Below are positions 1 through 16,543 of a stretch of 23,001 bases of DNA, piece after piece (within the stretch, counting starts at the first letter, position 1; each line of letters opens with the position of its first letter). Below the pieces are notes generated by a model. That model was not told where the DNA came from and did no database searches. It saw only the letters and a program-made list of their open reading frames with translations. The position numbers and the translations under genes were made by a program. The stretch is from a virus: positions 1 through 23,001 of IMG/VR virus record IMGVR_UViG_3300048011_000266. One strand, 5' to 3'.

Positions 1-119
1 TTACGACAGCGTTCGTACACTCTGCGTATCATAGGAATATTATCTAATGCAATCAATGGCTTACCCGGAAAGCGTGTGCTGCCATATCTAGCGGGTATAA
101 GAATAGCGGTGGATGTCAT
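1..119 (-). CDS. kdsB: CMP-Kdo synthetase (3-deoxy-manno-octulosonate cytidylyltransferase), N-terminal fragment
   Basis: This gene starts at the ATG at 119 and runs off the left edge of the window, leaving 39 codons. The translation reads [20 protein letters not shown] and continues with PLIAL and [10 protein letters not shown]. The IPARYxSTRxPGKPL motif is the nucleotide-binding N-terminus of KdsB, which transfers CMP from CTP to Kdo to make CMP-Kdo, the donor used by Kdo transferases. The start is supported by an AGGAG at 126-130, six bases upstream. The gene overlaps the end of kdsA by 32 bases, so the two are probably translated together. Related sugar cytidylyltransferases (for example NeuA-type) share the fold, but the motif wording and the adjacent kdsA favour KdsB. 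Completeness cannot be judged here. Confidence 0.88.
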
Positions 120-861
120 CTACAACTCCTTCAAAGTCTTCTAGTTTAATCATGTTGGGACCATCGCTAGGTGCGTTATCTGGGTCAGGGTGTACTTCTA
201 AAAAGAAATTCCTAATCCCCAAAGCACTAGCTGCACGAGATAGGCCAGGAACATAATCCCTATTCCCGCCGCTGCTACTTCCGTTGCCGCCTGGCTTTTG
301 TACACTGTGCGTGGCGTCCAACACAATAGGACAATCAAAATTATCAAGCATGTAATTAAGGCCGGTGAAATCAACAACCAAAGTATTATATCCAAAGCTA
401 GTACCTCTCTCTGTAATCCAAACCTCACGGGCTTCATCACACTTACTTAGCACTCCAGCCATATCCCAGGGCGCCATAAACTGGCCCTTCTTGATATTAA
501 CAATCTTATCTGTAGCACACGCCGCTTTAATCAAATCTGTTTGCCTGCACAAGAACGCAGGAATTTGGTAAACATCAACTGCATCTTTAAATTGTCGCTC
601 AATGCGTCGAACTTGTACAACATCATGTACATCGGTAAGTGTCTTTACACCTAGTGTTACTTTTAGTGCTAAGAAATCTGTAAGTGTTGCATCCATACCC
701 ATGCCGCGTTTGCCGCCAAGACTTGAACGATTTGCTTTGTCATAACTTGCTTTGAAGTAATAATCAATGCCGTACTTGTCGCATACACGTTTGCACTCTT
801 TGGCAATCTCTGCACTCTGTGCTAGTGTTTCATGTTGACAAGGCCCTGCTATAATTCTCAT
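88..861 (-). CDS. kdsA: 3-deoxy-D-manno-octulosonate 8-phosphate synthase
   Basis: The 257-residue protein is a full-length KdsA-type aldolase that condenses phosphoenolpyruvate with D-arabinose 5-phosphate to give Kdo 8-phosphate. The diagnostic [11 protein letters not shown] motif is at 37-47, [12 protein letters not shown] at 99-110, NIKKGQF at 122-128, DATHSVQ at 182-188 and [14 protein letters not shown] near the end. Residue 8 is Cys in AGPC, where the metal-independent class (for example E. coli) has Asn, and H185, E222 and D233 can complete a metal site; this points to the metal-dependent class. It is slightly shorter than E. coli KdsA (284), starting directly at the first barrel strand. 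The start overlaps the upstream stop by ATGA, and kdsB begins inside its 3' end. A Kdo-8-phosphate phosphatase and arabinose-5-phosphate isomerase are not seen here and may be host-supplied. Confidence 0.95.
126..130 (-). promoter_or_regulatory. Shine-Dalgarno sequence for kdsB
   Basis: AGGAG on the minus strand lies six bases before the ATG at 119, inside the 3' end of kdsA. It decides the start of the truncated kdsB fragment, which otherwise could have been overlooked as the tail of kdsA. Confidence 0.75.
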
Positions 862-1115
862 TTGTTGTCCTTTACTGTGTAATACATTGTAACTACTTGA
901 TCCAAGAGCTTTTTTATTGTAGGGTACTCTTCTGACAATCTACACAAATCTTGCCAGTCACTGTAGTTTAGTAAGTCACCTTGTGCTCTTGCTACTCCTG
1001 CAGGATCGCCACCTATAATCCATCGAGGTATCTCAGGCCTGTCGCGATAATGAGCATAGACAACACCGTCGCTACGCTCATATATCAATGCCTCTCCTGG
1101 AATCAAATCACCCAT
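858..1115 (-). CDS. conserved small phage protein
   Basis: This 85-residue protein has no function I can assign. It begins MGDLIPGEALIYERSDGVVY and contains YRDRPEIPRW and GGDPAGVARAQG, a pattern I recall from small uncharacterised proteins of marine T4-like phages, so it is probably part of the conserved gene set and not an accessory gene. It looks soluble, with a beta-rich N-terminal half and a helical C-terminal half, and lacks signal or membrane segments. Its start overlaps the end of the upstream gene by 8 bases and its stop overlaps the kdsA start by 4 bases, so it is translated in the same chain. Confidence 0.75.
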   Translation of the reverse strand: MGDLIPGEALIYERSDGVVYAHYRDRPEIPRWIIGGDPAGVARAQGDLLNYSDWQDLCRLSEEYPTIKKLLDQVVTMYYTVKDNK

Positions 1116-1835: not shown

Positions 1836-2198
1836 TTACGGTTTTCCTTTTACTTCTGTGCCGCTTGTACGACGAACAATGTCATCGTGATTAAATTCTG
1901 CCCAGTATAGTTCAAAAGCGACACCGTCTTCTAAACCTTCGAACTGGTGAATCTTGCCAGGCTTTACTTGTGTAAAGTCGCCTGCTTCGAGAATTGTTTC
2001 GTCAACAAGACCTTGATCATCTTGCCAAACTCGAACAATCATCTTGCCTGACTCGACAAAAAATCCATTCCATTTAAATTCGTGTTCATGTTCTGAACAT
2101 TTAAATCCTGCTTTATATTCAATACGGTGAAACTCTAGTACACCGTTTGCATGAATAAGCTCTGTAGCTCCCCATACCTTGCCTGCTTTAATTCCCAC
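1836..2198 (-). CDS. single-domain cupin protein (sugar-isomerase-like)
   Basis: The 120-residue protein is one cupin barrel. The first cupin motif is around residues 31-52, with GFKCSEHEHEF supplying H37 and H39; the second centres on GKIHQF with H84. The layout (WG near the start, a PG-type turn, an ESGKMIVRV strand and a closing HDDIVRR) resembles the C-terminal cupin of type II phosphomannose isomerase/ManC proteins. The likely substrate is a nucleotide sugar or sugar phosphate (isomerase or epimerase), but this is inferred. The start is a GTG at 2198 with AAGGA six to nine bases upstream. It resembles the cupin half of the fusion at 9456-10229, so the two may act on the same pathway. Confidence 0.8.
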   Translation of the reverse strand: MGIKAGKVWGATELIHANGVLEFHRIEYKAGFKCSEHEHEFKWNGFFVESGKMIVRVWQDDQGLVDETILEAGDFTQVKPGKIHQFEGLEDGVAFELYWAEFNHDDIVRRTSGTEVKGKP

Positions 2199-2208
2199 TA
2201 GTCTTCCT

Positions 2209-2715
2209 TTACATTAATAAACTATATTCTATAACTTCACTCTGTCTGCTTATATCTTTAACAAAATAAGCACATAGCGGATTCTTACCTTCTGTGATAG
2301 GAACACTTAACAACTGTCCGTTTTTCATTTTAGGAAAGTACCATTTTACGTCTGTATAAAAATTAGTAATTTTTATTTCAGCAAAGTCTGTTTTAAAACT
2401 AGTTAATGGATTAAACAAGAATGCTTCGAATCCTCTATCATTAATACTAGTTAAAGGCAATACTTCTAGGTCGCTGCCAGCTTGACTACATCCAACAGCA
2501 ACATTCCAGTCTACAGGAATTGTTACTTCGTGGCCGCCGATATCTAACACCATCGCAGGCGCACTAAAACTTTCTAAGAAAATTAACGGCGTAAAAAAGA
2601 AGTCAGGATTTTTTGGATCACTGTTGTCAAGTACGCTAAATCTTACATCATCTTCAATTTGTTCTGGCAGTTCGTCTAGGTTAAAACACTCGTTATCTAA
2701 GGTTAATATTCTCAT
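2209..2715 (-). CDS. conserved phage protein downstream of uvsW
   Basis: The 168-residue protein has no assigned function. It contains PLIFLESFSAPAMVLDIGG, IPVDWNVAVG, GFEAFLFNPLTSF and VKWYFPKMKNGQLLSVPI, a pattern I recall from uncharacterised proteins next to uvsW in marine T4-like phages. It looks like a soluble alternating beta protein without membrane segments. The ATG at 2715 follows the uvsW stop directly (TAAATG), so it is probably translated by termination-reinitiation and co-expressed with the helicase. Ten bases separate it from the cupin gene. Confidence 0.8.
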   Translation of the reverse strand: MRILTLDNECFNLDELPEQIEDDVRFSVLDNSDPKNPDFFFTPLIFLESFSAPAMVLDIGGHEVTIPVDWNVAVGCSQAGSDLEVLPLTSINDRGFEAFLFNPLTSFKTDFAEIKITNFYTDVKWYFPKMKNGQLLSVPITEGKNPLCAYFVKDISRQSEVIEYSLLM

Positions 2716-4179
2716 TTAATTCCAATCCACTTTTTCGATAGTAAATGGGTACTCTGCTTCTTTGTAAAATTTCTTACGCTGAGTTAGATGTCGCTTCGCA
2801 AACTTGCACGTTGATGTCAAGTCCCATATTTGTACGAAGTCTTTGTCCTTTGCCTTACGAACGCCTCTACCGATTGATTGTATTACTCTTACAAAACTTT
2901 TTCCAGGCTCAAGGAGAACCAAGTTAAAAATACGAGGAATATTAAGACCCACAGCAGCAACTCCATAGGTTGCAATAATGACTTCATTAGTGCCTTCACG
3001 GATTGTATCATATGTTTCCTTCCTGTCTTTTACTTTAACACTTCCGCTAATAAATGTAGCGCCGGGTATAAGTTCTGCTAATGTTTCGCCTGCACTAATC
3101 CTGTCTACAAGAATTAGAGTGTTGCCTGATTGTGATACTGTATTCATCATCTTACCAATATATTCTAAACGTGCTGTATCTGATGTTAGATACTTCAATT
3201 CGCTTTGGTAATCTCGATGTGCTACTGTATCGATAAGTTGTACTACATTAACATGGCATGCTGATAGCACGCCTTTGTCTTGTAGTTCCTTTGCAGTAAT
3301 TGCTCCGATAACAGGACCTAGACTAGCATGAATACTTTCGAATTCAAACTTCTCTCTTGGTACAGTGCCAGTTAGTCCCCAACGAATAGGAGCGTTACGC
3401 AGGTTGCGAGTAAGCAAGTTCTTGAGAACTTCTGCTTTCGCCATGTGTACTTCGTCAACAATAACAGTGCTCACACCTTCTAAGAACTCAGCCAGTGATA
3501 GTACTGCGCTGCCATCTTTATGCTTCTTGTCCAAAATATTCAAGGATTGCCAAGTGCATATTGTGTGAGTCTTACCTAGTTGCTTTCTGTCGCCAAAGTA
3601 CACCCCTACGTCCAATCCACAGTTAATATAGTCTTCTTCTGTTTGCTCTACCAAGCTCTTGTTAGGTACAATAACTAAACTACGCCCATAAGGTTCACTG
3701 ATATGTGATAACGTAGCTGTTGTAATTGTCTTACCTGCGCCTGTAGCAATCTGCTGTAGACTCTGTGGATTAGAAATAAAGTTGTTGATTGCCTCAACTT
3801 GATAGTCACGTAAAATAATTTCTGTACCAGCTACTGGATGACCTTCTGGCCAACAAACACCTTGATCGGCCCAATAGCGTTCTGTAACTGGTTGAAAGTT
3901 TAAAGTAATAGGATGTCGCCTATCTTCAATGTCAACAATTTCAACATTATTTTTTGCTAATACTTGTTGTACAACATCGAGATGATTAACGTATCCTGTG
4001 CCGCCGATACCAAAGAAAGCAACTTTGCCATCCCAGCGTCCTAGTTTGTACTGCGGCATATGTTTTGCGTAGGGTACTTCAAACTTAAGAGCATTCGCAA
4101 GTTTGCGACGAACGTCAACATCAAGTCCTTCGAGCTTGATGTTTACTTCATCTTCGATAATTAATTTACAACTAGCCAT
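2716..4179 (-). CDS. uvsW: UvsW-type superfamily 2 DNA helicase
   Basis: The 487-residue product matches T4 UvsW (503 residues), a helicase and annealing enzyme that regresses stalled forks, resolves recombination intermediates and removes R-loops so that origin-driven replication gives way to recombination-driven replication. An N-terminal DNA-binding region includes the LGRWDGK segment at 46-52. The Q-type motif LRDYQ is at 123-127, Walker A ATGAGKT at 145-151, the DEVH box at 242-245, LTGT near 269, and the arginine-finger motif QSIGRGVRK near 435. The gene overlaps the upstream conserved gene by 8 bases, and the downstream gene begins immediately after its stop. Confidence 0.96.
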   Translation of the reverse strand: MASCKLIIEDEVNIKLEGLDVDVRRKLANALKFEVPYAKHMPQYKLGRWDGKVAFFGIGGTGYVNHLDVVQQVLAKNNVEIVDIEDRRHPITLNFQPVTERYWADQGVCWPEGHPVAGTEIILRDYQVEAINNFISNPQSLQQIATGAGKTITTATLSHISEPYGRSLVIVPNKSLVEQTEEDYINCGLDVGVYFGDRKQLGKTHTICTWQSLNILDKKHKDGSAVLSLAEFLEGVSTVIVDEVHMAKAEVLKNLLTRNLRNAPIRWGLTGTVPREKFEFESIHASLGPVIGAITAKELQDKGVLSACHVNVVQLIDTVAHRDYQSELKYLTSDTARLEYIGKMMNTVSQSGNTLILVDRISAGETLAELIPGATFISGSVKVKDRKETYDTIREGTNEVIIATYGVAAVGLNIPRIFNLVLLEPGKSFVRVIQSIGRGVRKAKDKDFVQIWDLTSTCKFAKRHLTQRKKFYKEAEYPFTIEKVDWN

Positions 4180-5344
4180 AGTATCTTGAATGTCTCCTAA
4201 ATGGACTCATATGTTCTTCTCGATATACCACCAAGTCACAATTAAAAGAAATGTAACTATCAACATATCGATCCGTAGAACTCGTAAAACAAAACGCTGC
4301 GCCGGGCTTCCATTCATTATTCACAAGTAACTTTGGTAACTTACTCTTATTAATATACACTATCTTTGTTGATTTGTCAACCCAGTTGTTTAGTTTTCTA
4401 TCTTTAATCAATTGATTAAAACCTGCGTCTTTGTCTTCTAAACGAAACAGTACACTTTGTTCTTCTGGATTTAAAATATCTCTAAAATGATTTGCAAGTT
4501 CATGTAACTGGTCTTCTGGCTCGTTGTCTAATACTACTAACAGAGGAAATCTATTTAATTTCCATAATGCGTCTAAAATATTATGCAATGAATGCGCAGA
4601 CGGTTGACTGTGGAACTGCTTGTCTTTTCGAGATACAATTTGATTTACAAGAGTAGATTGATCAGTTGGTAATTCAATATGATTAAACCCATATCTAAAT
4701 CTACGATCAACAAACTGTAACATAGTTTCTGTTGTCGGCTCTCCTAGCTCATCTTTTATAATAGGTGTTAAACTAGGATGTATATTAACTAATTCCATAT
4801 TAGAAATACCACTTAGATAATCTTGCGGTTGGCTATGTATAGCTTTAATTTCTTTATGTATGCTAGTAAGTTCCTCGTCAATTTCAAACTCTTTGTTAAT
4901 AAAGTTATCTACTAATCTTAAAATATTACTTTCGGTAAGTGCAAAAGAATGTTTATGAGAACCTTTTTGATGATGGTATCCGTCACCTGCATGAGCTGCA
5001 ACTTCTTGGACTAACATTATTTCAGTTTTTCTAAAAGGAAATCTTACTTCAATATCGTTGTCTACAATTTTAATATATTTACTACGATCAATATGTCGAA
5101 CTGGTTGGCGCAATTGATTAACTGCATAATCAAAGTCCCAATCTAAATTAACAAACTGATCTCTATACGACTGTAATTTTTCATACATAAGTGCCGACTG
5201 TCTATCTGTTAGAGCAAGTCCTCGAAAGGTTTGCCTAGCAATACTAGTCATAATAGTATGGTCAGGTTTGTCAATAGTAAACTCAACAGGAGACTGTCGC
5301 AGTCCTGCAAGGTACTCTAAGCAATCTTCTAAATTTATAATCAT
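4172..5344 (-). CDS. conserved protein coupled to uvsW, function unknown
   Basis: This 390-residue protein has no function I can name. It is soluble and largely helical in its N-terminal two thirds, with RQTFRGLALTDRQSALMYEK near residue 37. A His-rich patch AHAGDGYHHQKGSHKH lies around residue 120, and the C-terminal third alternates strands and helices (FPLLVVLDNEPEDQ, WVDKSTKIVYINKSKLP) like a degenerate nucleotide-binding or helicase-like domain. The last 8 bases overlap the uvsW start, so it is translationally coupled to the helicase and may act with it; this is inferred from context only. The ATG at 5344 is 14 bases after the preceding stop and I see no clear ribosome binding site. Confidence 0.75.
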   Translation of the reverse strand: MIINLEDCLEYLAGLRQSPVEFTIDKPDHTIMTSIARQTFRGLALTDRQSALMYEKLQSYRDQFVNLDWDFDYAVNQLRQPVRHIDRSKYIKIVDNDIEVRFPFRKTEIMLVQEVAAHAGDGYHHQKGSHKHSFALTESNILRLVDNFINKEFEIDEELTSIHKEIKAIHSQPQDYLSGISNMELVNIHPSLTPIIKDELGEPTTETMLQFVDRRFRYGFNHIELPTDQSTLVNQIVSRKDKQFHSQPSAHSLHNILDALWKLNRFPLLVVLDNEPEDQLHELANHFRDILNPEEQSVLFRLEDKDAGFNQLIKDRKLNNWVDKSTKIVYINKSKLPKLLVNNEWKPGAAFCFTSSTDRYVDSYISFNCDLVVYREEHMSPFRRHSRYYG

Positions 5345-5358
5345 ACATACAGTATAAC

Positions 5359-6201
5359 TTAAAATAGTTTATCTGTCAAGCGTTTAAGTGGGATACCTTG
5401 AGAAATTTCTTCTATTGTATATTCAGTATGAGCATAGTCGTTGAGCCATTGTGTTCTGTCCGGCATCACAGGCTGTTCGATATCGTGTAAGAAATCAATG
5501 TCATTGCCGGCGTCATAAGCAAGACTATGAGTACTAACAAAAGCAGGAACACCATTGAGGATACTGTGAATACCAGGATTACTCGAATAGCTAATAGTAG
5601 CCCATATATTATCAAAGCCCATATCAAAATCGTCATAAGTGTTAGCAACATGCCTTGGCTCCTGTCTATATACGTGTTTAAGTCCACGCTCGATGTGTTC
5701 TAGTTTACAGCGTGGATGTGGACGGAATATGATTGGACGATCTGTATGTTTGCGTATCTCATCGTATGTCTGTAGGAACCAATTGCTCATACGTGGCATT
5801 TTACTCCACTGTAAACTCTTATCGTGTTGCCCGCAAATTAAAATGTACTCACCGTCTTTACGCCATGGCTTTAGTTTGAGTCCCAAGTTACGTACACGTA
5901 AATCATCCATACCAGTAGGCCCAAAATAAGCATCCCTGTTAATTCCATTTAATCCTACCTTCCAAGTTGTTCCACGTTGTATGCCACCTACTTCTAGTAC
6001 TATAGTCGGTTTGTCTTGATGCCAAACAGCTTCGTTTCTAGCCATTCTGCCATTCCAAAGAACGCTCCAAATAACATTAACGTCACTGTTAGTATTATTA
6101 TAAGAAACATCATGCCCAGCAGCCAAAAGACTGTGAGCAAAAGCATCAAAAACTGGTGCGCTATTGAGTGCGCCATTGTGTGTCCATAAACTAAACTTCA
6201 T
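5359..6201 (-). CDS. capsule-synthesis-like glycosyltransferase, paralogue 1
   Basis: The 280-residue protein starts at ATG 6201, which overlaps the end of the upstream transferase by 11 bases; a longer frame to 6270 would add 23 residues that run into that gene and is less likely. The N-terminus MKFSLWTHNGALNSAPVF is followed by a Rossmann-like first half. The second half has HTDRPIIFRPHPR, then SYSSNPGIHSILNGVPAFVS and a C-terminal TIEEISQGIPLKRL. These resemble the GT-B C-terminal domain of KpsC/KpsS-type capsule proteins (HP, then S/T-S with a GxP loop), some of which transfer Kdo. It shares this block with the genes at 7033 and 7962. The acceptor and the sugar are unknown. Confidence 0.72.
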   Translation of the reverse strand: MKFSLWTHNGALNSAPVFDAFAHSLLAAGHDVSYNNTNSDVNVIWSVLWNGRMARNEAVWHQDKPTIVLEVGGIQRGTTWKVGLNGINRDAYFGPTGMDDLRVRNLGLKLKPWRKDGEYILICGQHDKSLQWSKMPRMSNWFLQTYDEIRKHTDRPIIFRPHPRCKLEHIERGLKHVYRQEPRHVANTYDDFDMGFDNIWATISYSSNPGIHSILNGVPAFVSTHSLAYDAGNDIDFLHDIEQPVMPDRTQWLNDYAHTEYTIEEISQGIPLKRLTDKLF

Positions 6202-7036
6202 TCCAATATGCTTCTGTTCTATTAACCATAATATCTTTTCTAAGGCTCTTGCCAGTGTCTTTGCGGCCACCTTTCATATGATCTATCCATTTGCCTAGTG
6301 GTCCATTGATTAGAGGATGTCCGCCTCCGCCACTCTTTGCTTCACGCAAGTACATGTCTGCACTATAGTCATGTGATGGAAATTCACTGTACTTCTTTAG
6401 TATCTCACCGAATATATAACTGTCGTGCCATTCATCTAATAAGAACATTCCATTCTCTGCATCTTCATACATGCGTTCAAACTCTTTAAGGAATTCATGG
6501 CACACAGGATGGTTTAGATTCATGCCATAAAAGCCGCATTCTGGCCATGTCTGTGATCCTTTGCCTCTGCCTACATATGTAATGTAAGCATTGTCAGGTA
6601 ATAGCTCTGCAAAGTCTTCGTAACTCCAATTGCTGTGTACAAATGTATCTGCATCCATCCACACGCACCAGTCCTTAGAGCGTGTACAAGCGTCATACAC
6701 TGCGTATGTTTTATTGGCGAACCTAACTGCATCCCACTTGAATTCTTTCATCCAATCGCGACGTGTGTGACGCTGTGGTTCATTACTAACATCGCCATTG
6801 GCTTTAGGAACATTGCCCCACTTTTCTTTAAATGCATTTAGTTTAGGTAATGCTTGCTTTGCATCTAATATTTCAATGCGACTTGGATCAGGGTTATTAG
6901 GTTTACAATCTTCTGCATATACCAACAACTTAATACGCTTGTCTACCCTTGCTGCAAAGCTTTCTAAAAAACGCTCGCCGTATTTTGTTAATCCTGCTGG
7001 GTGAAATGTTGTTACTACTGTTATATGTTTGCTCAT
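6191..7036 (-). CDS. DxD-type glycosyltransferase (GT-A fold, probable)
   Basis: The 281-residue protein begins MSKHITVVTTFHPAGLTKYG. The start at 7036 gives an ATGA overlap with the upstream stop; upstream in-frame ATGs lie inside the previous gene. Its central WCVWMDADTFVHS carries a DxD motif that in GT-A enzymes binds the metal and nucleotide sugar, and a later ECGFYGMNLNHP plus LLDEWHDSYIF resembles the acceptor side of such transferases. There is no signal peptide or membrane segment, so it should work in the cytoplasm of the infected cell. It lies between two capsule-synthesis-like paralogues in one overlapping chain, which argues for assembly of one glycan. Family assignment beyond a DxD transferase is uncertain. 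Confidence 0.78.
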   Translation of the reverse strand: MSKHITVVTTFHPAGLTKYGERFLESFAARVDKRIKLLVYAEDCKPNNPDPSRIEILDAKQALPKLNAFKEKWGNVPKANGDVSNEPQRHTRRDWMKEFKWDAVRFANKTYAVYDACTRSKDWCVWMDADTFVHSNWSYEDFAELLPDNAYITYVGRGKGSQTWPECGFYGMNLNHPVCHEFLKEFERMYEDAENGMFLLDEWHDSYIFGEILKKYSEFPSHDYSADMYLREAKSGGGGHPLINGPLGKWIDHMKGGRKDTGKSLRKDIMVNRTEAYWNEV

Positions 7037-7965
7037 TTTATTGCCCATTTCCTTAGGTGTTTCCATGCTGTGCCGTCTTTAAGTTCATCTAATGTCCAGT
7101 GCATCTGTGCCATTTTTTGAATCCATAATTCCCTATCAAACTCTTTTAAATTTTCAATATCTGCTAGTGTATGATGAGAAACTTCAGCTGCTTGGCTTCT
7201 ATCAGGATCTAGTACGATTGAAGGAATGCCTTCGATCGCTGCTGCAACAGTTGGGCTCGAATTATAATTAATTACACAATGAGCTGTAGAAAAATCTTCT
7301 AATATATTTTCTGATTGGCTTACTTTTACATTTTTTAATCGATATCTTGCCAGAGATCGTTTATGCTCTATTATTTTTTTATCTCCTGGGTGAAATCTAA
7401 CTATTATAGTCCTATCTGATAATGTTTTAATTTTCATTATTAGTTTTACTAACCATGGTAACAATTTTTTCCCTTCCATACTCCAGCCACCGTCACGCTG
7501 ACAACATATTAAAATATTATCTCCATTGGTTTTATAAGGTTTTAGAGAAATTTTTAAACGCTGACTTATTAGATTCCATCGTTCTGGATTAGGCTTGTCA
7601 TTACAATAATCTCCGGTATTTGGAAAAATACCATCGTAACTATAACGTAAGAATTGATTTTTATTTCCTTTATCGGCATATAAAAATAAATTACTATCGA
7701 CAATAATACTGCGCTTATTATCTTTTTGCTGTTTTTCAAAAACATTTTTACGTAAATTTAAATGTTGAGAGTTTTTACTACCAGGATGTACAAACCCTTG
7801 TACAACAGCAACATCTGTATTAACTGGTTCGTAATCTGTAACAATTGTTCCTTCGTCACCGCAGCGCCATACACCTTCGATAAAATTTACAATAATAGCA
7901 GGTTTTTCTGGATTTTTATTTCCCGGAGGTATGCCCATTAAATAGGAAGCAACAGTAATTGTCAT
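7033..7965 (-). CDS. capsule-synthesis-like glycosyltransferase, paralogue 2
   Basis: The 310-residue protein is placed from ATG 7965, which forms an ATGA overlap with the upstream stop; the open frame continues nine codons further up. Features include ILICCQRDGGWSMEGKK, then LSDRTIIVRFHPGDKK, NYNSSPTVAAAIEGIPSIVL and the end WTLDELKDGTAWKHL. The HP pair and the NS-x(10)-GxP block are typical of KpsC/KpsS-like capsule transferases with a GT-B fold. The same ordered blocks occur in the genes at 5359 and 7962, so the three are paralogues. Lysine- and asparagine-rich composition is somewhat more AT-biased than neighbouring core genes. Which sugar it transfers is unknown; Kdo is plausible because kdsA and kdsB are close by. 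Confidence 0.74.
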   Translation of the reverse strand: MTITVASYLMGIPPGNKNPEKPAIIVNFIEGVWRCGDEGTIVTDYEPVNTDVAVVQGFVHPGSKNSQHLNLRKNVFEKQQKDNKRSIIVDSNLFLYADKGNKNQFLRYSYDGIFPNTGDYCNDKPNPERWNLISQRLKISLKPYKTNGDNILICCQRDGGWSMEGKKLLPWLVKLIMKIKTLSDRTIIVRFHPGDKKIIEHKRSLARYRLKNVKVSQSENILEDFSTAHCVINYNSSPTVAAAIEGIPSIVLDPDRSQAAEVSHHTLADIENLKEFDRELWIQKMAQMHWTLDELKDGTAWKHLRKWAIK

Positions 7966-8789
7966 GCCTGTGTTTCCTGTAATATGTGCCAAGCAGTTCC
8001 GTCTTCCATTTCTGCTTGCGTAAATTGTGAGTACGACAAGTGTGTTAAGAAAGAGTGCATTTCGTCTTCGGTTGGTATTCTAGGATTTTCTAGATTTGCT
8101 AGATTGGTTTCGCAAATCAACTGTGCAGCATTTGGTCCTAGAGTAATTGCAGGCTTGCCTTCCATCAATGCTTCTGTTGCTGCAATACTATTGTATGTGA
8201 TCAAACAATGTACATCATCTTGTAAGGCGTCTTGAATAGTTTTTGTGCTGATACGTTCACTTCTAATAGGCTTCATTCTAATTTCAATAGGACGATCAGT
8301 GAGTGTTTTTAACTGTGTCACTAACTTATCTGTCCACTCTTTGGCAGTACCTTGATTAAACATATTCATAACCTTGTTACTAGGCGGACATACTAGTATT
8401 TTTCTTCCAGAAGTAAATGGTTTATAAATTTCTTTCCACGACTTTTGCAACTGTAATTCAAGTCTATCAACAGGATAAACTTTTGTATTATTCATATTTT
8501 GTAGGGCATTATAAGTGATTCGATGCCATATCTTATGTTTGGAGTTGCCGAAGTAACCAGTGTCAATAGCATAAAATGGTCTACCAGTTGCCCAGCATTT
8601 TTTAATAGCTTTTTGACTTCCGCCGCCGAGTCCTCTAATAATTAAAGTGCTACTTGTATGCTCTTCATTTTCCCAACTTGATTCTAAACCGTTAACGCCT
8701 TTTATAAAACTCCGTAAATAAGGATCGTAATCATGACCTTTTTTTGCAAAATTTGCGCCGCTAGTATCTATCGCTGCTACCTTACCCAT
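7962..8789 (-). CDS. capsule-synthesis-like glycosyltransferase, paralogue 3
   Basis: The 275-residue protein starts at ATG 8789, overlapping the upstream transferase by 8 bases. It opens MGKVAAIDTSGANFAKKG and contains a glycine-rich IIRGLGGGSQKA near residue 50. It then has the shared blocks KILVCPPSN, LTDRPIEIRMKP, TYNSIAATEALMEGKPAITL and MEDGTAWHIL. Here the HP pair of the other two copies reads KP, so a putative active-site or donor-binding His is replaced. The block arrangement still matches GT-B capsule-type transferases. It is the most divergent of the three paralogues; it could have a different donor or be a non-catalytic partner. Confidence 0.7.
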   Translation of the reverse strand: MGKVAAIDTSGANFAKKGHDYDPYLRSFIKGVNGLESSWENEEHTSSTLIIRGLGGGSQKAIKKCWATGRPFYAIDTGYFGNSKHKIWHRITYNALQNMNNTKVYPVDRLELQLQKSWKEIYKPFTSGRKILVCPPSNKVMNMFNQGTAKEWTDKLVTQLKTLTDRPIEIRMKPIRSERISTKTIQDALQDDVHCLITYNSIAATEALMEGKPAITLGPNAAQLICETNLANLENPRIPTEDEMHSFLTHLSYSQFTQAEMEDGTAWHILQETQA

Positions 8790-9456
8790 TCATCATCGCC
8801 TGTAGTTCTTCTTTCCAGCGTAAACTAAACTCGCAGTTTCTATAATTTTCAAACCACGGTCCGCCTTCTGTGTAGTGTATTAATTTAGGAATTTCGATAT
8901 CATCATATACTCCTACTAGATAATTCCATGTGTGATGTAGCTCGCCGATCTCTTCATCTTTAAGCCAACTAAATCTATGAAAGTATGCGCCGTTTAGTTC
9001 CGGATCGTTTACCATATCTTGTGTAAGTCTTGCATTGCTAGGATGAGCACAGTTGAATAACACAACACTTGACCAGTTTTTGCGTGGATAGATTGTTTGC
9101 TTTTGTCCATCCATCTTCATACCTTCTTTAGGTGTGTAATCGTGTTGTACACACATAACAGCCTTTGAATCATCTACTTGATCAAATAATTCTTTAATGT
9201 CTGTAGTAAGGATCATGTCGCAATCCATAAACACTGCCCAGCCTTTGAAGTTAGCAAGTTCTGGTACTAAGAAGCGTGTAAATGTAAACTCAGTACTTGC
9301 AAGTTTGTCTTTTGGCCGTGTATACCAACCTGCGTCACGAAGTTCTTTTTGTATTAGTGGGCGTACAATTGCTTCCGGTTGTTTTGTTAAGATGCTGTGT
9401 TTACACACTTGATATGCAATATCTTCTCTTGGATCATAACCTACAAATACTTTCAT
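8782..9456 (-). CDS. GT8-like glycosyltransferase
   Basis: The 224-residue protein begins MKVFVGYDPREDIAYQVC. It contains STEFTFTRFLVPEL, a DxD motif in AVFMDCDMI near residue 79, WSSVVLFNC and a closing HYTEGGPWFENY near residue 195. The DxD and the H-x-x-x-GG-PW pattern are those of family 8 type GT-A transferases, which add hexoses to lipopolysaccharide cores or similar acceptors with retention of configuration. It has no membrane segment. Its ATG overlaps the stop of the nucleotidylyltransferase-cupin gene by one base (TAATG), and its stop region overlaps the next transferase, so it is the second gene of the chain that follows the late promoter at 10235. Confidence 0.83.
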   Translation of the reverse strand: MKVFVGYDPREDIAYQVCKHSILTKQPEAIVRPLIQKELRDAGWYTRPKDKLASTEFTFTRFLVPELANFKGWAVFMDCDMILTTDIKELFDQVDDSKAVMCVQHDYTPKEGMKMDGQKQTIYPRKNWSSVVLFNCAHPSNARLTQDMVNDPELNGAYFHRFSWLKDEEIGELHHTWNYLVGVYDDIEIPKLIHYTEGGPWFENYRNCEFSLRWKEELQAMMNG

Positions 9457-10229
9457 TAATCTCTTCTTTCAATATCTTCTTCATAACACACACCCCATTG
9501 TATTTCTAGTATGTGTGCATTTATATCACTGGGATTACTTGCTTTATGCCAAACTTCTTTTCCGATTTCATAAGGCCTAGAGGATGACTGGAGGTGTGTA
9601 ACATTTTTCAGTGAGTTATATTCGGTATCCATTTTTACAGTACCTGATAACACTTGCCATTGCTCTGAACGTTCAAAGTGTTTTTGATCACTTAGTGATT
9701 TGCCTGGATAAATTACAAGCTCTTTTACCTTGTAACCTTTGTCTGGTGCGTCATCTAGTACACGCCAGTAGCCCCAGTCACGTTCAGTCTTCTGTGTTTT
9801 CCACTCGTCTAGTATCCAACTACTGCTGTTAGCTTTGTTACTGCCGCCAACTTTCCACGCAAACTCTACATCAGGAGTATTGCCATATGTAGCGTATTCT
9901 GGTGTAGTTTTATTTGTTCTATCGCCGCCATTAGCAAACACAACAGTCCAGCTACTGCCTTTAGTAGCAAGTACTTGACCTATTGCCATGCAAGCACTTC
10001 CGTCATCGTCGTTAAATCCGATAACTTCGTCGACACATGCAAGTTCTTTAATAATTTCTGCACGTTCTGTAAAGGACATGAAAGGCTTACCCTTTTTACG
10101 AGTAAGCCAATCATCTGAATTAACACCGACTACTAAGTGATCACCAAGTTCTTGTGCTGCTTTAAAATATGCTATGTGCCCTGAGTGTAAGGGATCAAAG
10201 CCTCCAGTTACTAATACTACTTTGCTCAT
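9456..10229 (-). CDS. sugar-phosphate nucleotidylyltransferase fused to a phosphomannose-isomerase-type cupin
   Basis: The 257-residue protein has two domains. Residues 1 to about 140 form an HxGH nucleotidylyltransferase: GGFDPLHSGH at 9-18, VVGVNSDDWL, FTERAEII and NGGDR near 100, closest in style to RfaE-type heptose-phosphate adenylyltransferases. Residues about 150-257 form a cupin like the C-terminus of type II phosphomannose isomerases: WGYWRVL at 152-158, YPGKSLSDQKHFERSEQW starting near 174, SGTVKM and the closing EIQWGVCYEEDIERRD. One polypeptide therefore could isomerise and activate a sugar for the downstream transferases; the exact sugar is unknown. The gene starts at ATG 10229, five bases after TATAAATA, with no Shine-Dalgarno sequence in front. 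Confidence 0.85.
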   Translation of the reverse strand: MSKVVLVTGGFDPLHSGHIAYFKAAQELGDHLVVGVNSDDWLTRKKGKPFMSFTERAEIIKELACVDEVIGFNDDDGSACMAIGQVLATKGSSWTVVFANGGDRTNKTTPEYATYGNTPDVEFAWKVGGSNKANSSSWILDEWKTQKTERDWGYWRVLDDAPDKGYKVKELVIYPGKSLSDQKHFERSEQWQVLSGTVKMDTEYNSLKNVTHLQSSSRPYEIGKEVWHKASNPSDINAHILEIQWGVCYEEDIERRD

Positions 10230-10266: not shown

Positions 10267-10968
10267 TTATTGATTGTTTGATAAATCTTTAAAAATGTCT
10301 TGTATAGGTGTAATATCAAATGTGTTATTAAAGAATACTGGCTGATCTACAGTTGACAGTACTGCATCTATTTGCATACTTTTAAAATGATCATAAAATT
10401 TTGTCCCGTCACCTTTTATATTATCCGAAAATCTAACCCAAGCAGCTGGAATATTATATGCATGTGCTGCTATAATTCCGTGTAAACTACTGGATATAAT
10501 ATTTCTACATTTTGATATTTCCTTAGCAACTTCCAATGGATTTGTATTTACAACATTTATGATTTTGTAATTTAGATATTTTTCTTTAACTAGTTTGTAA
10601 TCAACAAAGTGAGGCACGATGCCTACGTCATACTCTTTTTTGCTTTCATCACAAAATAGTGGAAGTAATAGTGCAGGGTCGCCATAAACTTCTGGACAAT
10701 TGCCGCCTGCTGCAATTACTTTATTTCGTGTTAACGGTCCTCTAACAAATTTATAATTTGCATTTGGATTTAACTTTTCTTTAGATTTCATTATTCCAGA
10801 ACCTAGTACAGTGACATTATTACTAGCTCGTCTGGCAATCGAACCTATACAAATTGTATCAGCATGTTCCAGCGATGTAAAATTATATGTTATATTAAAA
10901 TGATCCAACAAGTAAGGAGTTAAAACATCGCCGAAGTTATTATCCTTTGTGTACCACCATATTTTCAT
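10267..10968 (-). CDS. polysaccharide pyruvyltransferase-like protein
   Basis: The 233-residue protein matches the polysaccharide pyruvyltransferase family, which ketalises sugars of exported polysaccharides using phosphoenolpyruvate. Visible blocks are NFGDVLTPYLL at 10-20, VLGSGIM, FVRGPLTRNKV, VYGDPALLLP and ISSSLHGIIAAHAYNIPAAW. The SLHG and GDPALL motifs are the family hallmarks. It is shorter than most bacterial members (roughly 300 or more residues) but keeps both halves. Some family members transfer other groups, so pyruvyl is the likely but not certain donor. Its ATG overlaps the stop of the GT25 gene by one base (TAATG). The next gene starts after a 37-base gap holding a late promoter. 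Confidence 0.87.
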   Translation of the reverse strand: MKIWWYTKDNNFGDVLTPYLLDHFNITYNFTSLEHADTICIGSIARRASNNVTVLGSGIMKSKEKLNPNANYKFVRGPLTRNKVIAAGGNCPEVYGDPALLLPLFCDESKKEYDVGIVPHFVDYKLVKEKYLNYKIINVVNTNPLEVAKEISKCRNIISSSLHGIIAAHAYNIPAAWVRFSDNIKGDGTKFYDHFKSMQIDAVLSTVDQPVFFNNTFDITPIQDIFKDLSNNQ

Positions 10969-11654
10969 TAATTTTCCTTTAGATTACGTGTTAAGCTTTC
11001 TGACCTTATATTATTTCCTATTGCATAAAATGGATGTAGTCTTGCTAAACTCGGAATAGTAGTTCTAGTATCAACTACCCAATCGCCAATTTGCTGATCT
11101 GCTGGCACATGTCCATTTTTCTTAATATGATTAATTAATTTTTTTGCGCCAGATGGCTTTACTATATATGCATATGCACCTTTAAAATAGTTGCCTGTTC
11201 CAATTTTATCAGGATTTTTATTTTGTAAATTTGTATACTTTTCTATAGAAAGTTGCAACGTTGATTCTTCTTCTAATACTTTATTATAAGAATTACTGTA
11301 AGGATCGCATCTATCTAGTTTTAATACATCTTCAAATGTATCCAATATATCAAATGGTAATGATTTCATCATATACCCATCATGTTCCAAAATAACAAAA
11401 GGTGTATTGGTTTCTATGCATTTTACCCATAGATAGTAATGACTAAAGAAACATCCTAATACACCAATCCGTCCTTTTTTCATTTTTCTTTTTGGCAGGA
11501 TGCCTGTTTTTTCATAGTGAAATTTTACATCATTGCCGTCAATCGCATCAAAATAAACTGGAGATAATCCGTGCAATATGGCTTGATCAAAGCAATCTTT
11601 TGCCATATTGCACGAATGTTTATTTTCTTTAAGGCGTATAATATATGCCTTCAT
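10968..11654 (-). CDS. GT25-type glycosyltransferase
   Basis: The 228-residue protein resembles family 25 lipopolysaccharide glycosyltransferases (LgtB/LpsA type). It begins MKAYIIRLKENKHSCNMAKD and has FDAIDGNDV, RIGVLGCFFSHYYLWVKC near residue 62, and FVILEHDGYM near 86, where the usual acidic metal-binding triplet EDD reads EHD. Near the end KGAYAYIVKPSGAKKLI matches the family's later conserved block. The start at 11654 overlaps the upstream gene by ATGA, tying this glycan gene into the uvsX chain. Use of Asn, Lys and Tyr is high compared with the upstream recombination genes, which may indicate later acquisition. The acceptor is unknown. Confidence 0.85.
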   Translation of the reverse strand: MKAYIIRLKENKHSCNMAKDCFDQAILHGLSPVYFDAIDGNDVKFHYEKTGILPKRKMKKGRIGVLGCFFSHYYLWVKCIETNTPFVILEHDGYMMKSLPFDILDTFEDVLKLDRCDPYSNSYNKVLEEESTLQLSIEKYTNLQNKNPDKIGTGNYFKGAYAYIVKPSGAKKLINHIKKNGHVPADQQIGDWVVDTRTTIPSLARLHPFYAIGNNIRSESLTRNLKEN

Positions 11655-14660: not shown

Positions 14661-16525
14661 TCTCTCATTCTGTCATAATCGCCTGTGTCTGGTGCTTCCA
14701 TCTGCTGTGGTTGGTTGCGCATTTGGAACTCTTCAAACTTTGCGCCTATTTGTTCGATAAATGCCTTGGCAGGTTCTATGAACTGCTCGCCATAATCTTT
14801 TTCAACCATAGTTAATACTGCTGTTTCGCCTTTTGGAAATTCACCCGTTTCTCTATCAAAGTAACTAAGAATAAACTCGCCTAATGGTGTCTTTTGTTCT
14901 TTTTCTTCGTGACCGTCATCTTTACTAATTGCGCCATCTTTATCGATCTTAACGTCCATAGTGTCGTCATCTTCGTCTTGATTAAAATCGTGTGCATCAA
15001 TATACTGCATTACAGGATATAATGTGTTTACAATTTGATTACCAAAGCGAGCATTTTTACCTGACCCCGGCTGAGTTTCTAATTTCTTTGCTTCGCCACG
15101 TAATGTCATCATGTCATCAATTGCTGCTTTGAAGTTTTTATCAATGCCTTGAAATCCATTTGTATTTGATTCGATCCATGTATATACATCCCATGTATCA
15201 CTAACATATTCGTTTGCTAAGTTACCGTCGTACTCGCCATCGCCTGTTTCAATCTTTTTGCCTTTGCCGCGTAATACGCCTAGCGCATCACTTGCATCTT
15301 TGCTAGTTTTAATATATGCTTCTTGTACATCGTCCTCGTTTGTGTCACATTCGCAAGGTGCGCAATTACATTCTTCGCACTCTTTAGCTTCTGCAAACTG
15401 ACCCATCATTTCTTCAAAGCCTTGCTCTAGTGCAATCTCTTCTGGCACACATTTGTTTACACGCTTGCCTTTGTTCTTACCTGTGCCAGCTTGTGTGCCA
15501 GCTTTTTTATAACCATCCCAGCACTTGTCTGGTCCTGCTACTTCTTCTAAGTCGTCCGGGCCTAGTTCTTGTGCCTTTGTTGCTTCGCTTACTAGTTTAT
15601 AAATGTATGGGAATACATCTGCTAGTTCTTCATTAAACTGTTTGATAGTTAGTTGGTCAATCCAATTCTCTGCAACATCACTTGGAACATCTTCCAACAT
15701 CGGCTTTTCAAATGCAGCAAATGTTTCTGCATAGTAAGCTGGCTTCTGAAGGCTCTCAATTGTTTTCTTAACTGTAGCAATACGTTCTTTAACAACATCT
15801 ACATATCCTGCTAGACTTTCTGCCATCACAGCTGAACGGCCCATGTAGTTTTTAAACTTACGTAGTTTGCCCATTTCTTCTGACAACCCTATAATGTGTT
15901 TGCCAAAATCATCATAAGCGTTTCCGCCTTCAGCAACATGTCTTGCCATTGCTCTTGCACCACTTAGGTGTTTGAATGGATAACGGAATCTTTCGCCGTC
16001 GGCACTTTCAATATAAATTTTACCAATTTTTTGTGTGCGTCCTGTTGCACTTTCTTGGTTAATACTTTCTGTGTGTTTAACCACAATACGTGCTTCGCCT
16101 ACTTTTTGATAGCTAATACGGCTAGTGCCATAAAGTTTTGATTCTGTCATTTGTCCGTCCTCAGGGGGTTTCGCTAAGAATTTATAATCTCTTTTTGTTA
16201 AATTTGACTTTGTAATATCTCTTACGCTGTAATCCAGCATACGCTTTTTACTAAACACACGCAGTTCTTTTAAGAAGTCATACCACGCATCTTGCGTCAT
16301 TTCGTCTTGATCTTCCATAAAGTCTTTACTGTATATAACAGTTAAGCCTTCATCTTCGTCTAAGCTTAAACTTACTTTGCCTAACCCATTATAATCAAAA
16401 TCAAAGAAACGAGCCATACTCGGCTCATTAGTAACTGTTCCAGTCTCGTCACCTATTGTAACTTCTGGAAAACGTCCTCTTATCTTGTTAAAAAGGTCTT
16501 CGCCTATTTTGTCAAATTCTTGCAT
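14642..16525 (-). CDS. large probable virion protein with cysteine motifs
   Basis: The 627-residue protein has no named function. It lies between gp17 and gp32 and is probably a head or virion component, as similar large acidic proteins in marine T4-like phages are. Visible features are a CWDGYKK motif at 335-341 paired with NKC at 357-359, a cysteine cluster C383, C386, C388, C391, C393, and an internal duplication: LRGKGKKIET near 418 and LRGEAKKLET near 475, each followed by a matching aromatic V-x-x-[WY]-I-[ED] segment. The tail is acidic and ends MRELAGLR. The ATG at 16525 is four bases after GATAAATA and lacks a Shine-Dalgarno sequence. No enzyme motif was seen. Confidence 0.75.
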   Translation of the reverse strand: MQEFDKIGEDLFNKIRGRFPEVTIGDETGTVTNEPSMARFFDFDYNGLGKVSLSLDEDEGLTVIYSKDFMEDQDEMTQDAWYDFLKELRVFSKKRMLDYSVRDITKSNLTKRDYKFLAKPPEDGQMTESKLYGTSRISYQKVGEARIVVKHTESINQESATGRTQKIGKIYIESADGERFRYPFKHLSGARAMARHVAEGGNAYDDFGKHIIGLSEEMGKLRKFKNYMGRSAVMAESLAGYVDVVKERIATVKKTIESLQKPAYYAETFAAFEKPMLEDVPSDVAENWIDQLTIKQFNEELADVFPYIYKLVSEATKAQELGPDDLEEVAGPDKCWDGYKKAGTQAGTGKNKGKRVNKCVPEEIALEQGFEEMMGQFAEAKECEECNCAPCECDTNEDDVQEAYIKTSKDASDALGVLRGKGKKIETGDGEYDGNLANEYVSDTWDVYTWIESNTNGFQGIDKNFKAAIDDMMTLRGEAKKLETQPGSGKNARFGNQIVNTLYPVMQYIDAHDFNQDEDDDTMDVKIDKDGAISKDDGHEEKEQKTPLGEFILSYFDRETGEFPKGETAVLTMVEKDYGEQFIEPAKAFIEQIGAKFEEFQMRNQPQQMEAPDTGDYDRMRELAGLR

Positions 16526-16529
16526 AATG

Positions 16530-16537
16530 TATTTATC
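16530..16537 (-). promoter_or_regulatory. late promoter before the 627-residue gene
   Basis: GATAAATA on the minus strand, in the short gap after the gp17 stop, is a one-base variant of the T4 late word. It ends four bases before the ATG at 16525, so the transcript would begin at or inside the start codon. No Shine-Dalgarno sequence is visible. Confidence 0.65.
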
Positions 16538-16543
16538 AACTCG

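Follow-up and report, generated by a model that had tools for sequence, protein, structure and literature searches.

3-Deoxy-D-manno-octulosonic acid (Kdo) is an inner-core sugar of most Gram-negative lipopolysaccharide (LPS) and the linker of group 2 capsules. Viral genes for its synthesis and activation are already known: kdsA and kdsB are listed as auxiliary genes of viruses, and one cultured phage, Synechococcus phage S-SCSM2R, has both. We describe a kdsA-kdsB pair in IMG/VR virus record IMGVR_UViG_3300048011_000266; the complete record, 23,001 bases long, is the stretch analyzed here and is called the window. In this phage and its relatives, the pair forms an intact, selected cassette that is optional and lies at the end of an operon of phage replication and glycan genes. 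The explanation we favor, with a probability of about 0.58, is that the phage boosts the supply of cytidine monophosphate (CMP)-activated Kdo for envelope remodeling of the infected cell.

Excerpts of published surveys count kdsB and kdsA as common LPS genes at surface and subsurface depths (PMC10653327), report kdsB from trench viruses (PMC9529941), and describe a 179-kb ocean virus, with three T4-like structural genes, in which KdsA occurs alongside NeuA and further LPS genes (PMC5332604). The lineage described here differs from these gene lists: their excerpts mention neither a linked pair nor a conserved place, and neither an altered KdsB site nor a fold of Kdo transferases.

Two phages resemble the lineage in carrying kdsA and kdsB side by side: S-SCSM2R (PQ898602) and the uncultured phage LR756500. 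Both differ from it in sequence (about 40% identity in KdsA and 32% to 36% in KdsB), in the canonical aspartate of their KdsB, and in gene order. In the cultured cyanophage S-SCSM2R (locus L082, 11980-13401), the annotated KdsA and KdsB genes are convergent. Marine Synechococcus LPS is reported to be without Kdo, so the role of that pair is puzzling.

In the open-licence literature, we found no paper on phage-encoded KdsB with Kdo, none pairing 8-phosphooctulonate synthase with a phage genome, and none naming S-SCSM2R; the main texts of a pelagimyophage paper (PMC7029224) and of PMC9602691 have neither "kds" nor "Kdo" as a word. As far as this literature and the phage collection tell, 3 things are new: the conserved optional pair in a jumbo phage lineage, a KdsB whose metal site is altered, and neighboring proteins with a Kdo-transferase fold.

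The kdsA-kdsB pair in the window

The minus strand of the window carries phage genes for tail, packaging, single-stranded DNA-binding protein (SSB), UvsX, and UvsW-type functions. From base 11,654 to the record edge run 17 listed genes on the same strand, with 11 overlaps and every gap at most 37 nt. The last two before the edge, which cuts kdsB, are these:

88-861, minus strand: kdsA, 3-deoxy-8-phosphooctulonate (Kdo8P) synthase of the predicted metal-dependent (Cys) type, complete; from models, PDB matches, and ligand positions.
3-119, minus strand: kdsB, CMP-Kdo synthetase-like, first 39 codons, cut by the edge, 32-nt overlap with kdsA; from PF02348 and PDB matches.
126-130, minus strand: AGGAG, likely ribosome-binding site of kdsB, inside kdsA, 6 nt before the ATG; from the sequence.

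The pair fits the definition of phage auxiliary metabolic genes: host-type metabolic genes between phage genes, conserved in place. Relatives were collected with KdsA from IMG/VR (best 80 of 238 kept) and with UvsW (best 80 of at least 600 candidate loci), and bacterial-reference loci were the best 80 of 195. Since the best-scoring loci were taken, counts below describe close relatives rather than all viruses.

KdsA is a predicted Kdo8P synthase of the metal-dependent type

The window's kdsA is an intact gene of 257 aa, from ATG to TAG, and its product is predicted to be a metal-dependent Kdo8P synthase. It passes the NCBIfam equivalog TIGR01362 (KDO8P_synth) with 320.4 bits against a cut-off of 314 (321.6 in a second run), and NF003543 with 333.9 bits against 242. 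Among 50 matched PDB sequences, the best 40 are Kdo8P synthases (top E 3.6e-76), and the other 10 are weak matches to 3-deoxy-D-arabino-heptulosonate 7-phosphate (DAHP) synthases, starting at E 9.6e-9. An initial sequence-only reading had named the gene from its KANRSS and DATHSVQ motifs, and these lie at residues 42-47 and 182-188 of a protein that clears the equivalog cut-off. The metal-ligand positions C8, H185, E222, and D233 are kept in the window and in 80/80 relatives, and K-A-N-R is identical in all 80; we take these Cys, His, Glu, and Asp positions to be the ligands that define the metal-dependent type. A DAHP synthase is ruled out by the PDB ranking and by DAHP-type models, which reach at most 71 bits against cut-offs of at least 267.75. 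A sialic-acid-type (NeuB) synthase, which the same reading had raised as the case that would undo its assignment, is ruled out too: there is no NeuB-type model among the 8 families listed, and the PDB ranking agrees.

In a quick tree, a single clade with an SH-aLRT support of 100 unites 30 rows of the phage group: the window, contig L084, and 28 of the 80 relatives. Its stem measures 1.97 changes per column, and its position among mostly alphaproteobacterial sequences is weakly supported. The bacterial side came from the genomes of 34 of the 80 bacterial-reference loci, of which 31 matched and 30 gave sequences. The single clade and its long stem would most simply reflect one old capture. Phage KdsA is thus like the TIGR01362 enzymes in score, metal ligands, and K-A-N-R, and unlike them in being a deep separate clade, 41% to 54% identical to the 30 bacterial matches.

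KdsB resembles CMP-Kdo synthetases and has an altered metal site

The start codon of kdsB is at 119-117 and the AGGAG at 130-126. As first read, the gene shows 39 codons, a ribosome-binding site of its own, and an overlap with kdsA; the range given in that reading starts at base 1, and the last whole codon ends at base 3. From these 39 residues alone, the PF02348 cytidylyltransferase model gives 44 bits against a cut-off of 22.6, and every one of the 12 PDB sequences matched by the fragment is a KdsB. The prospect that kdsB is broken just beyond the edge is answered by the relatives, in which the gene is open to full length; the window's own copy is readable to codon 39.

The metal site is therefore described from full-length relatives, beyond the window's fragment: 69 of 75 cluster members were aligned, and 6 cut or short ones were dropped. 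All 69 carry Asn at the position of the Mg-A aspartate and an invariant Glu two residues upstream of that, giving E-I-N. In 77 bacterial references, which were fetched with patterns from the phage alignment and are therefore a biased sample of KdsB, the same position is Asp in 72, belongs to D-x-N in 4, and is cut away in 1. The D-x-N carriers are three Desulfofervidaceae and one deltaproteobacterium; the change is therefore not confined to phages, and the idea of a phage-only metal site fell. The approximately unbiased test does not reject a common origin of these sequences and the phage group, nor does it show one (p-AU 0.353). A KdsB that is 47% identical and also has E-I-N occurs in L086, from a metagenome-assembled genome (MAG) labeled Euryarchaeota.

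D98 (the Asp of the QGD motif), Q96, H160, E183, E189, and Q190 are identical in 69/69. The full-length relative L003 was modeled with a predicted local distance difference test (pLDDT) score of 94.7, and its 32 best Foldseek PDB chains are CMP-Kdo synthetases (template modeling (TM) score up to 0.92, E as low as 9.5e-23); CMP-sialate, pseudaminate, and Kdn synthetases rank far lower. Likeness to known CMP-Kdo synthetases (TIGR00466/PF02348) thus lies in the best sequence and fold matches and in the retained QGD, H160, Y164, and E189-Q190; the difference lies in E-I-N and in scores under the equivalog cut-off. Both lineage records searched with TIGR00466 (those of L003 and L205) fall below it, likewise S-SCSM2R, and LR756500 lies above. 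The phage proteins are also shorter, with a median of 227 aa against 241 in the bacterial references.

According to an excerpt on the Aquifex enzyme, D95 and D219 hold Mg-A (PMC3149649); an excerpt on CMP-sialate synthetase has D209 and D211 both essential (PMC2901514). The latter two would correspond to the E-I-N spot of phage KdsB. On alignment evidence, the simplest reading is that the metal ligand may have shifted two residues upstream. The lineage protein is best described as CMP-Kdo-synthetase-like with an altered metal site, that is, probably working like the family rather than being a strict member of it.

The pair is linked, selected, and optional in relatives

A kdsB start lies downstream of kdsA in 77/80 relatives, and the other contigs end inside kdsA (2) or 51 bases after it (1). 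Spacing was measured for 75 pairs: 35 overlap by at least 25 nt and 15 by 4-10 nt, which makes 50 overlapping pairs; 18 lie 0-138 nt apart and 7 lie 553-966 nt apart. Both genes are under purifying selection, with a median dN/dS of 0.157 for kdsA (969 pairs) and 0.215 for kdsB (450 pairs), by a simple pairwise NG86 count over pairs with shared history.

UvsW served as an anchor that does not presuppose kdsA. A closed interval from uvsW to the neighboring clusters cl6/cl7 was found in 57/80 UvsW loci, and 23 loci in which cl6/cl7 was not seen were dropped. Within these intervals, 23 carry kdsA and kdsB, 30 carry neither, 3 carry kdsB alone, and 1 carries kdsA alone; "neither" refers to that interval and not to the whole genome. 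The UvsW tree requires 9 changes for kdsA and 9 for kdsB. After correction for kinship, 6 supported independent contrasts in kdsA remain, in which kdsB changes the same way in 4.4, the opposite way in 0.1, and not at all in 1.5 (averages).

Several relatives carry further genes at the pair. In 4/80 loci, the gap between kdsA and kdsB contains the start of a gene from one family; the copy in L036 (10764-11741) is hemE-like, for a uroporphyrinogen decarboxylase, and this locus has a BtuB-like TonB-dependent receptor downstream (15302-17038). The hemE-like cluster occurs in 4/80 loci and the TonB-dependent receptor cluster in 11/80. Upstream of kdsA, L075 has a queuosine-precursor transporter (8771-9421; TIGR00697, 95 bits against 50.95) whose cluster is found in 25/80 loci; it is possibly linked to deazaguanine modification.

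Role of the pair in the Kdo pathway

The phage would make its own Kdo8P synthase, for the first Kdo-specific step, and its own CMP-Kdo synthetase. Host KdsD would give arabinose-5-phosphate, and host KdsC would remove the phosphate. The extra CMP-Kdo would feed surface-glycan remodeling by host transferases, phage transferases, or both. The benefit, most simply, would be receptors that are hidden or changed, or an envelope supplied through a long jumbo phage infection. KdsB catalyzes the rate-limiting step of LPS biosynthesis, according to an excerpt of PMC3149649. Supplying the first Kdo-specific step together with the rate-limiting one would follow the usual logic of auxiliary metabolic genes.

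The sequence-only reading had proposed a search for kdsC and kdsD, and it came back empty: models for kdsC (TIGR01670), kdsD (TIGR00393), and waaA each matched 0/15 long relatives (42-236 kb; the records may be incomplete). In 14 control genomes, the same models matched in 11, 14, and 3, and were over the cut-off in 4, 3, and 3. As the long relatives show no kdsC or kdsD match, arabinose-5-phosphate and a phosphatase would have to come from the host.

LR756500.1 (L164), the 462-kb uncultured phage, has kdsA, a canonical kdsB, and the gene of a 408-aa protein side by side at 2578-9913. The 408-aa protein ends in a KdsD-like isomerase domain (158 bits, below the TIGR00393 cut-off of 203.7). Upstream of these genes are a pyruvyl-transferase homologue and a weak match to a surface-glycan transferase (NF046086, 28 bits against a cut-off of 200). 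Phages can thus assemble more of the Kdo pathway than the two genes of the window.

The surrounding operon and its transferases

The same-strand run upstream of the pair includes a surface-glycan block: GT8-like, GT25, pyruvyl transferase, and HldE-type genes, together with a family of the KpsC fold. Features other than kdsA and kdsB are as follows:

858-1115, minus strand: 85-aa protein, function not assigned; 4-nt overlap with the kdsA start; present in 64/80 kdsA loci, some contigs stopping short of its position.
1836-2198, minus strand: small cupin, 120 aa; present in 75/80 kdsA loci.
2716-4179, minus strand: UvsW-like helicase, anchoring a conserved replication-gene neighborhood.
5359-6270, minus strand: gtA, glycosyltransferase-like, with the predicted KpsC/WbbB/KrkA (beta-Kdo transferase) fold; RPHP at 183-186; Q148-H-D-K-S152 replaces QxxxD; from structure model and alignment.
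6191-7066, minus strand: conserved protein between transferases, without Pfam match; in 45/80 kdsA loci; likely a GT-A transferase, given a DxD-like WMDAD stretch.
7033-7992, minus strand: gtC, a gtA paralogue (29.6% across 179 aa); retains RFHP and is without QxxxD; TIGR04396 (surface carbohydrate) matches weakly, at 26 bits where the cut-off is 125.
7962-8789, minus strand: gtD, paralogue in the gtA family; Lys replaces the His of RxHP.
8782-9456, minus strand: GT8-like glycosyltransferase; PF01501 24.2 bits, just below the cut-off of 24.3; phrog_28018 (function unknown), E 4.6e-53.
9456-10229, minus strand: fusion of an HldE-type nucleotidyltransferase domain and a mannose-6-phosphate-isomerase-type cupin.
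10267-10968, minus strand: polysaccharide pyruvyl transferase; PF04230, 57.6 bits against a cut-off of 25.3.
10968-11654, minus strand: GT25 LPS-type glycosyltransferase; PF01755, 61.6 bits against a cut-off of 24.

Residues 46-188 of the GT25-like protein also match phrog_61, labeled 2-oxoglutarate (2OG)-Fe(II) oxygenase (E 9e-8); this is probably a mixed phrog and the protein not an oxygenase. The small cupin goes with the pair, being present in 22/23 uvsW-interval loci with kdsA and kdsB and in 10/30 with neither; the 85-aa protein gene is present in 23/23 and 13/30. In kinship-corrected contrasts, the cupin changes in the same direction as kdsA in 3.6 and in the opposite one in 0.1, too few for significance. 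The cupin may act on the sugar, which makes it a lead.

The paralogues gtA, gtC, and gtD belong to a family with 293 members across 110/161 phage loci, a count in which some contigs, fetched by both scans, appear twice (L042 and L175 are one contig). The gtA model has a pLDDT of 92.8. Its 26 best Foldseek matches are chains of KpsC, WbbB, and KrkA, with TM scores of at most 0.50. By VIA, ranks 1-15 are all beta-Kdo transferases, led by KpsC 8fux (Z 13.7, root-mean-square deviation 3.8, 235 aligned residues); Z runs from 13.7 to 10.7 for KpsC/WbbB/KrkA against 9.9 for the best other protein. A search of PDB sequences with a gtA-alignment profile gave 6 matches (best E 0.047), with no Kdo transferase, and phmmer with one QxxxD-bearing family member gave no match among PDB sequences. 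Fold comparison alone therefore links the family to Kdo transferases. The early observation that capsule-synthesis-like transferases lie upstream on the same strand fits this 17-gene run and the modeled fold of gtA.

According to an excerpt of PMC12887879, (K/R)xHP is the CMP-binding motif of Kdo and sialic acid transferases. The motif is kept in 31/31 gtA rows and 9/9 gtC rows, and in 0/5 of gtD, where the His is lost. The nucleophilic Asp of QxxxD is missing from all three: in gtA, Q148 is kept with Ser at +4 in 31/31; gtC has Gly in 9/9; and gtD is without the Gln in 5/5. This position was judged from motif and spacing rather than from a residue-level structure alignment. The window's proteins thus resemble the retaining beta-Kdo transferases KpsC (GT107), WbbB (GT99), and KrkA (GT140) in the fold of gtA and the RxHP motif, and differ from them in that none of the three copies has the QxxxD nucleophile. 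A further difference from the KpsC type is that PF05159 matches in only 1/15 long relatives, below its cut-off. The family as retaining beta-Kdo transferases was set aside for the missing nucleophile.

QxxxD is in place in 9/293 family members, on eight contigs; the motif search had printed 15 matches, of which 6 (L243, L245, L074, L075, L217, and L234) were dropped, the motif not following the expected strand. A later sample added four further QxxxD proteins (L277, L278, L279, and L281/L300). A tie between QxxxD members and the cassette was weakened by L278, whose 92-kb record has no kdsA match. The family also extends beyond the pair: there is a match in 24/30 loci with neither gene in the interval, and members occur in 23/24 long records, 10 of which have an empty interval. 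Double-length family members of about 570 aa are present in several relatives (for example, L062 1002-2708). The window's transferases are, on these models, near Kdo transferases in fold and equipped with the CMP-binding motif; their sugar donor is hypothetical, and the family does not depend on the cassette.

Weighing the explanations

Several observations count against the boosted CMP-Kdo supply that we favor. Enzymatic activity, the use of host KdsC and KdsD, the destination of the sugar, and the benefit to the phage are what we infer, and KdsC and KdsD are assumed of the host. In the window itself, kdsB can be read only as far as codon 39. The L003 protein scores 125.9 bits against the TIGR00466 cut-off of 155.2, and the second Mg-A Asp is replaced in every lineage KdsB aligned. 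Linkage is imperfect as well: 4/57 intervals carry one gene only (3 kdsB, 1 kdsA), and the kinship-corrected co-occurrence is below significance (median p 0.125, 6 contrasts only). When 12 empty-interval records were searched whole for kdsA, 1, of 382 kb, had it elsewhere, beside a cupin. There, in L307 (9018-10185 of a 381,886-base record), kdsA and the cupin adjoin more than 220 kb from uvsW, and no kdsB match was found in the whole record.

The metal site bears on the thought that the lineage KdsB activates a sugar other than Kdo or is inactive, so that the pair serves another path, such as a Kdo derivative or a Kdo8P sink. E-I-N throughout the phage proteins against Asp in 72/77 references, the shorter chain, and the sub-threshold TIGR00466 score all speak for it, as would the two essential Asp residues of CMP-sialate synthetase (excerpt of PMC2901514) if their correspondence holds. 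We consider it unlikely: by sequence and fold the phage proteins are nearest to CMP-Kdo synthetases, D98, Q96, H160, E183, E189, and Q190 are invariant, D-x-N also occurs in bacterial KdsB, and kdsB is under purifying selection. Chance, host contamination, or a decaying passenger gene is rejected as a practical matter and has next to no probability. The record is indeed a fragment of uncultured origin, but phage replication, packaging, and tail genes flank the pair, its order is kept in dozens of contigs, and dN/dS is well below 1.

The sequence-only reading saw in the linked genes a synthesis, activation, and transfer set for a dedicated phage glycan. The linkage stood; the set is partial, its transferases lack the nucleophile, and their family also occurs without kdsA and kdsB. 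A dedicated Kdo glycan is thus a hypothesis and not a finding. In its full form, KpsC-fold transferases of the same operon would use phage CMP-Kdo for a polymer or decoration that host enzymes do not make. The top fold matches of gtA, the CMP-binding motif retained in gtA and gtC, and the QxxxD members found so far speak for it; the Ser and Gly in place of the nucleophile, the lost His of gtD, the family in empty intervals, and the QxxxD member of L278 away from any kdsA match speak against it. We hold it to be possible though doubtful. The same tentative standing goes to a broader proposal: a portable CMP-Kdo module, in which KdsA, a KdsB with a rebuilt site, and multi-copy, diversifying transferases of the beta-Kdo fold would build phage-specified Kdo glycans on the infected cell; as many of these transferases have the CMP-binding motif and most are without the covalent nucleophile, they would transfer from a CMP-sugar by another mechanism. 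That Kdo or a Kdo glycan decorates the virion or the DNA instead of the cell surface is improbable; the cassette does lie among replication genes (UvsX, SSB, UvsW), in an operon that carries transferases.

Phage lineage and other viral matches

The nearest cultured matches of UvsW are the PA5oct/Paride group, Sinorhizobium phage Phosso, and Agrobacterium phage Atu_ph07 (51% to 56% identity); those of the terminase are the PA5oct group (Pseudomonas) and Phosso (50% to 54%). Records with kdsA reach 201, 236, 358, and 382 kb. Nearness to jumbo phages in both proteins and the long kdsA records point to a jumbo lineage of the T4 superfamily, apparently of marine jumbo phages infecting bacteria. The "marine T4-like" of the sequence-only reading is adjusted accordingly, as the closest cultured phages are jumbo phages. 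Unlike the lineage, the PA5oct/Paride group, Phosso, and Atu_ph07 are absent from the 14 phage records in which KdsA found a match.

Other matches were assessed one by one. Two KdsA matches labeled Acinetobacter "phage" MD-2021a were taken as host contamination, the one inspected lying in a chromosomal pyrG-kdsA-eno arrangement. Ten matches of 24.6% to 26.9% identity (Listeria, Staphylococcus, Enterococcus, and one "Bacteriophage sp.") were set aside, as expected of DAHP-synthase relatives. L084 and L085 (PBPT01000082.1 and PBPT01000016.1) were rejected as Neomarinimicrobiota genes, since their contigs carry the same phage core genes; both come from one MAG and show the same phage block with near-equal match scores, and are read as a misbinned phage, possibly assembled twice. 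On the KdsB side, two matches in "Bacteriophage sp." records have 30.5% and 32.6% identity, and the match in Marine virus AG-345-D19 (28.7%, 75% covered) has no adjoining kdsA match in its 10.5-kb stretch.

Implications

The kdsA-kdsB pair is a real, selected pathway fragment, and a dedicated glycan is a good hypothesis for what it may serve. Phage LPS genes have been explained, in excerpts of PMC5332604 and PMC9529941, as a change of surface against other phages or as stuffer DNA. Such accounts came without a defined product; here, the enzymes name the sugar as Kdo. Since the cassette is gained and lost between close relatives, phages with and without it are directly comparable. The E-I-N KdsB is a natural test of the role of the second metal-binding Asp. 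If the KpsC-fold family does use CMP-sugars, transferases of this kind would reach into phages and past the double-displacement mechanism. That many relatives carry the same pair suggests that these phages rebuild the surface of the cells they infect.

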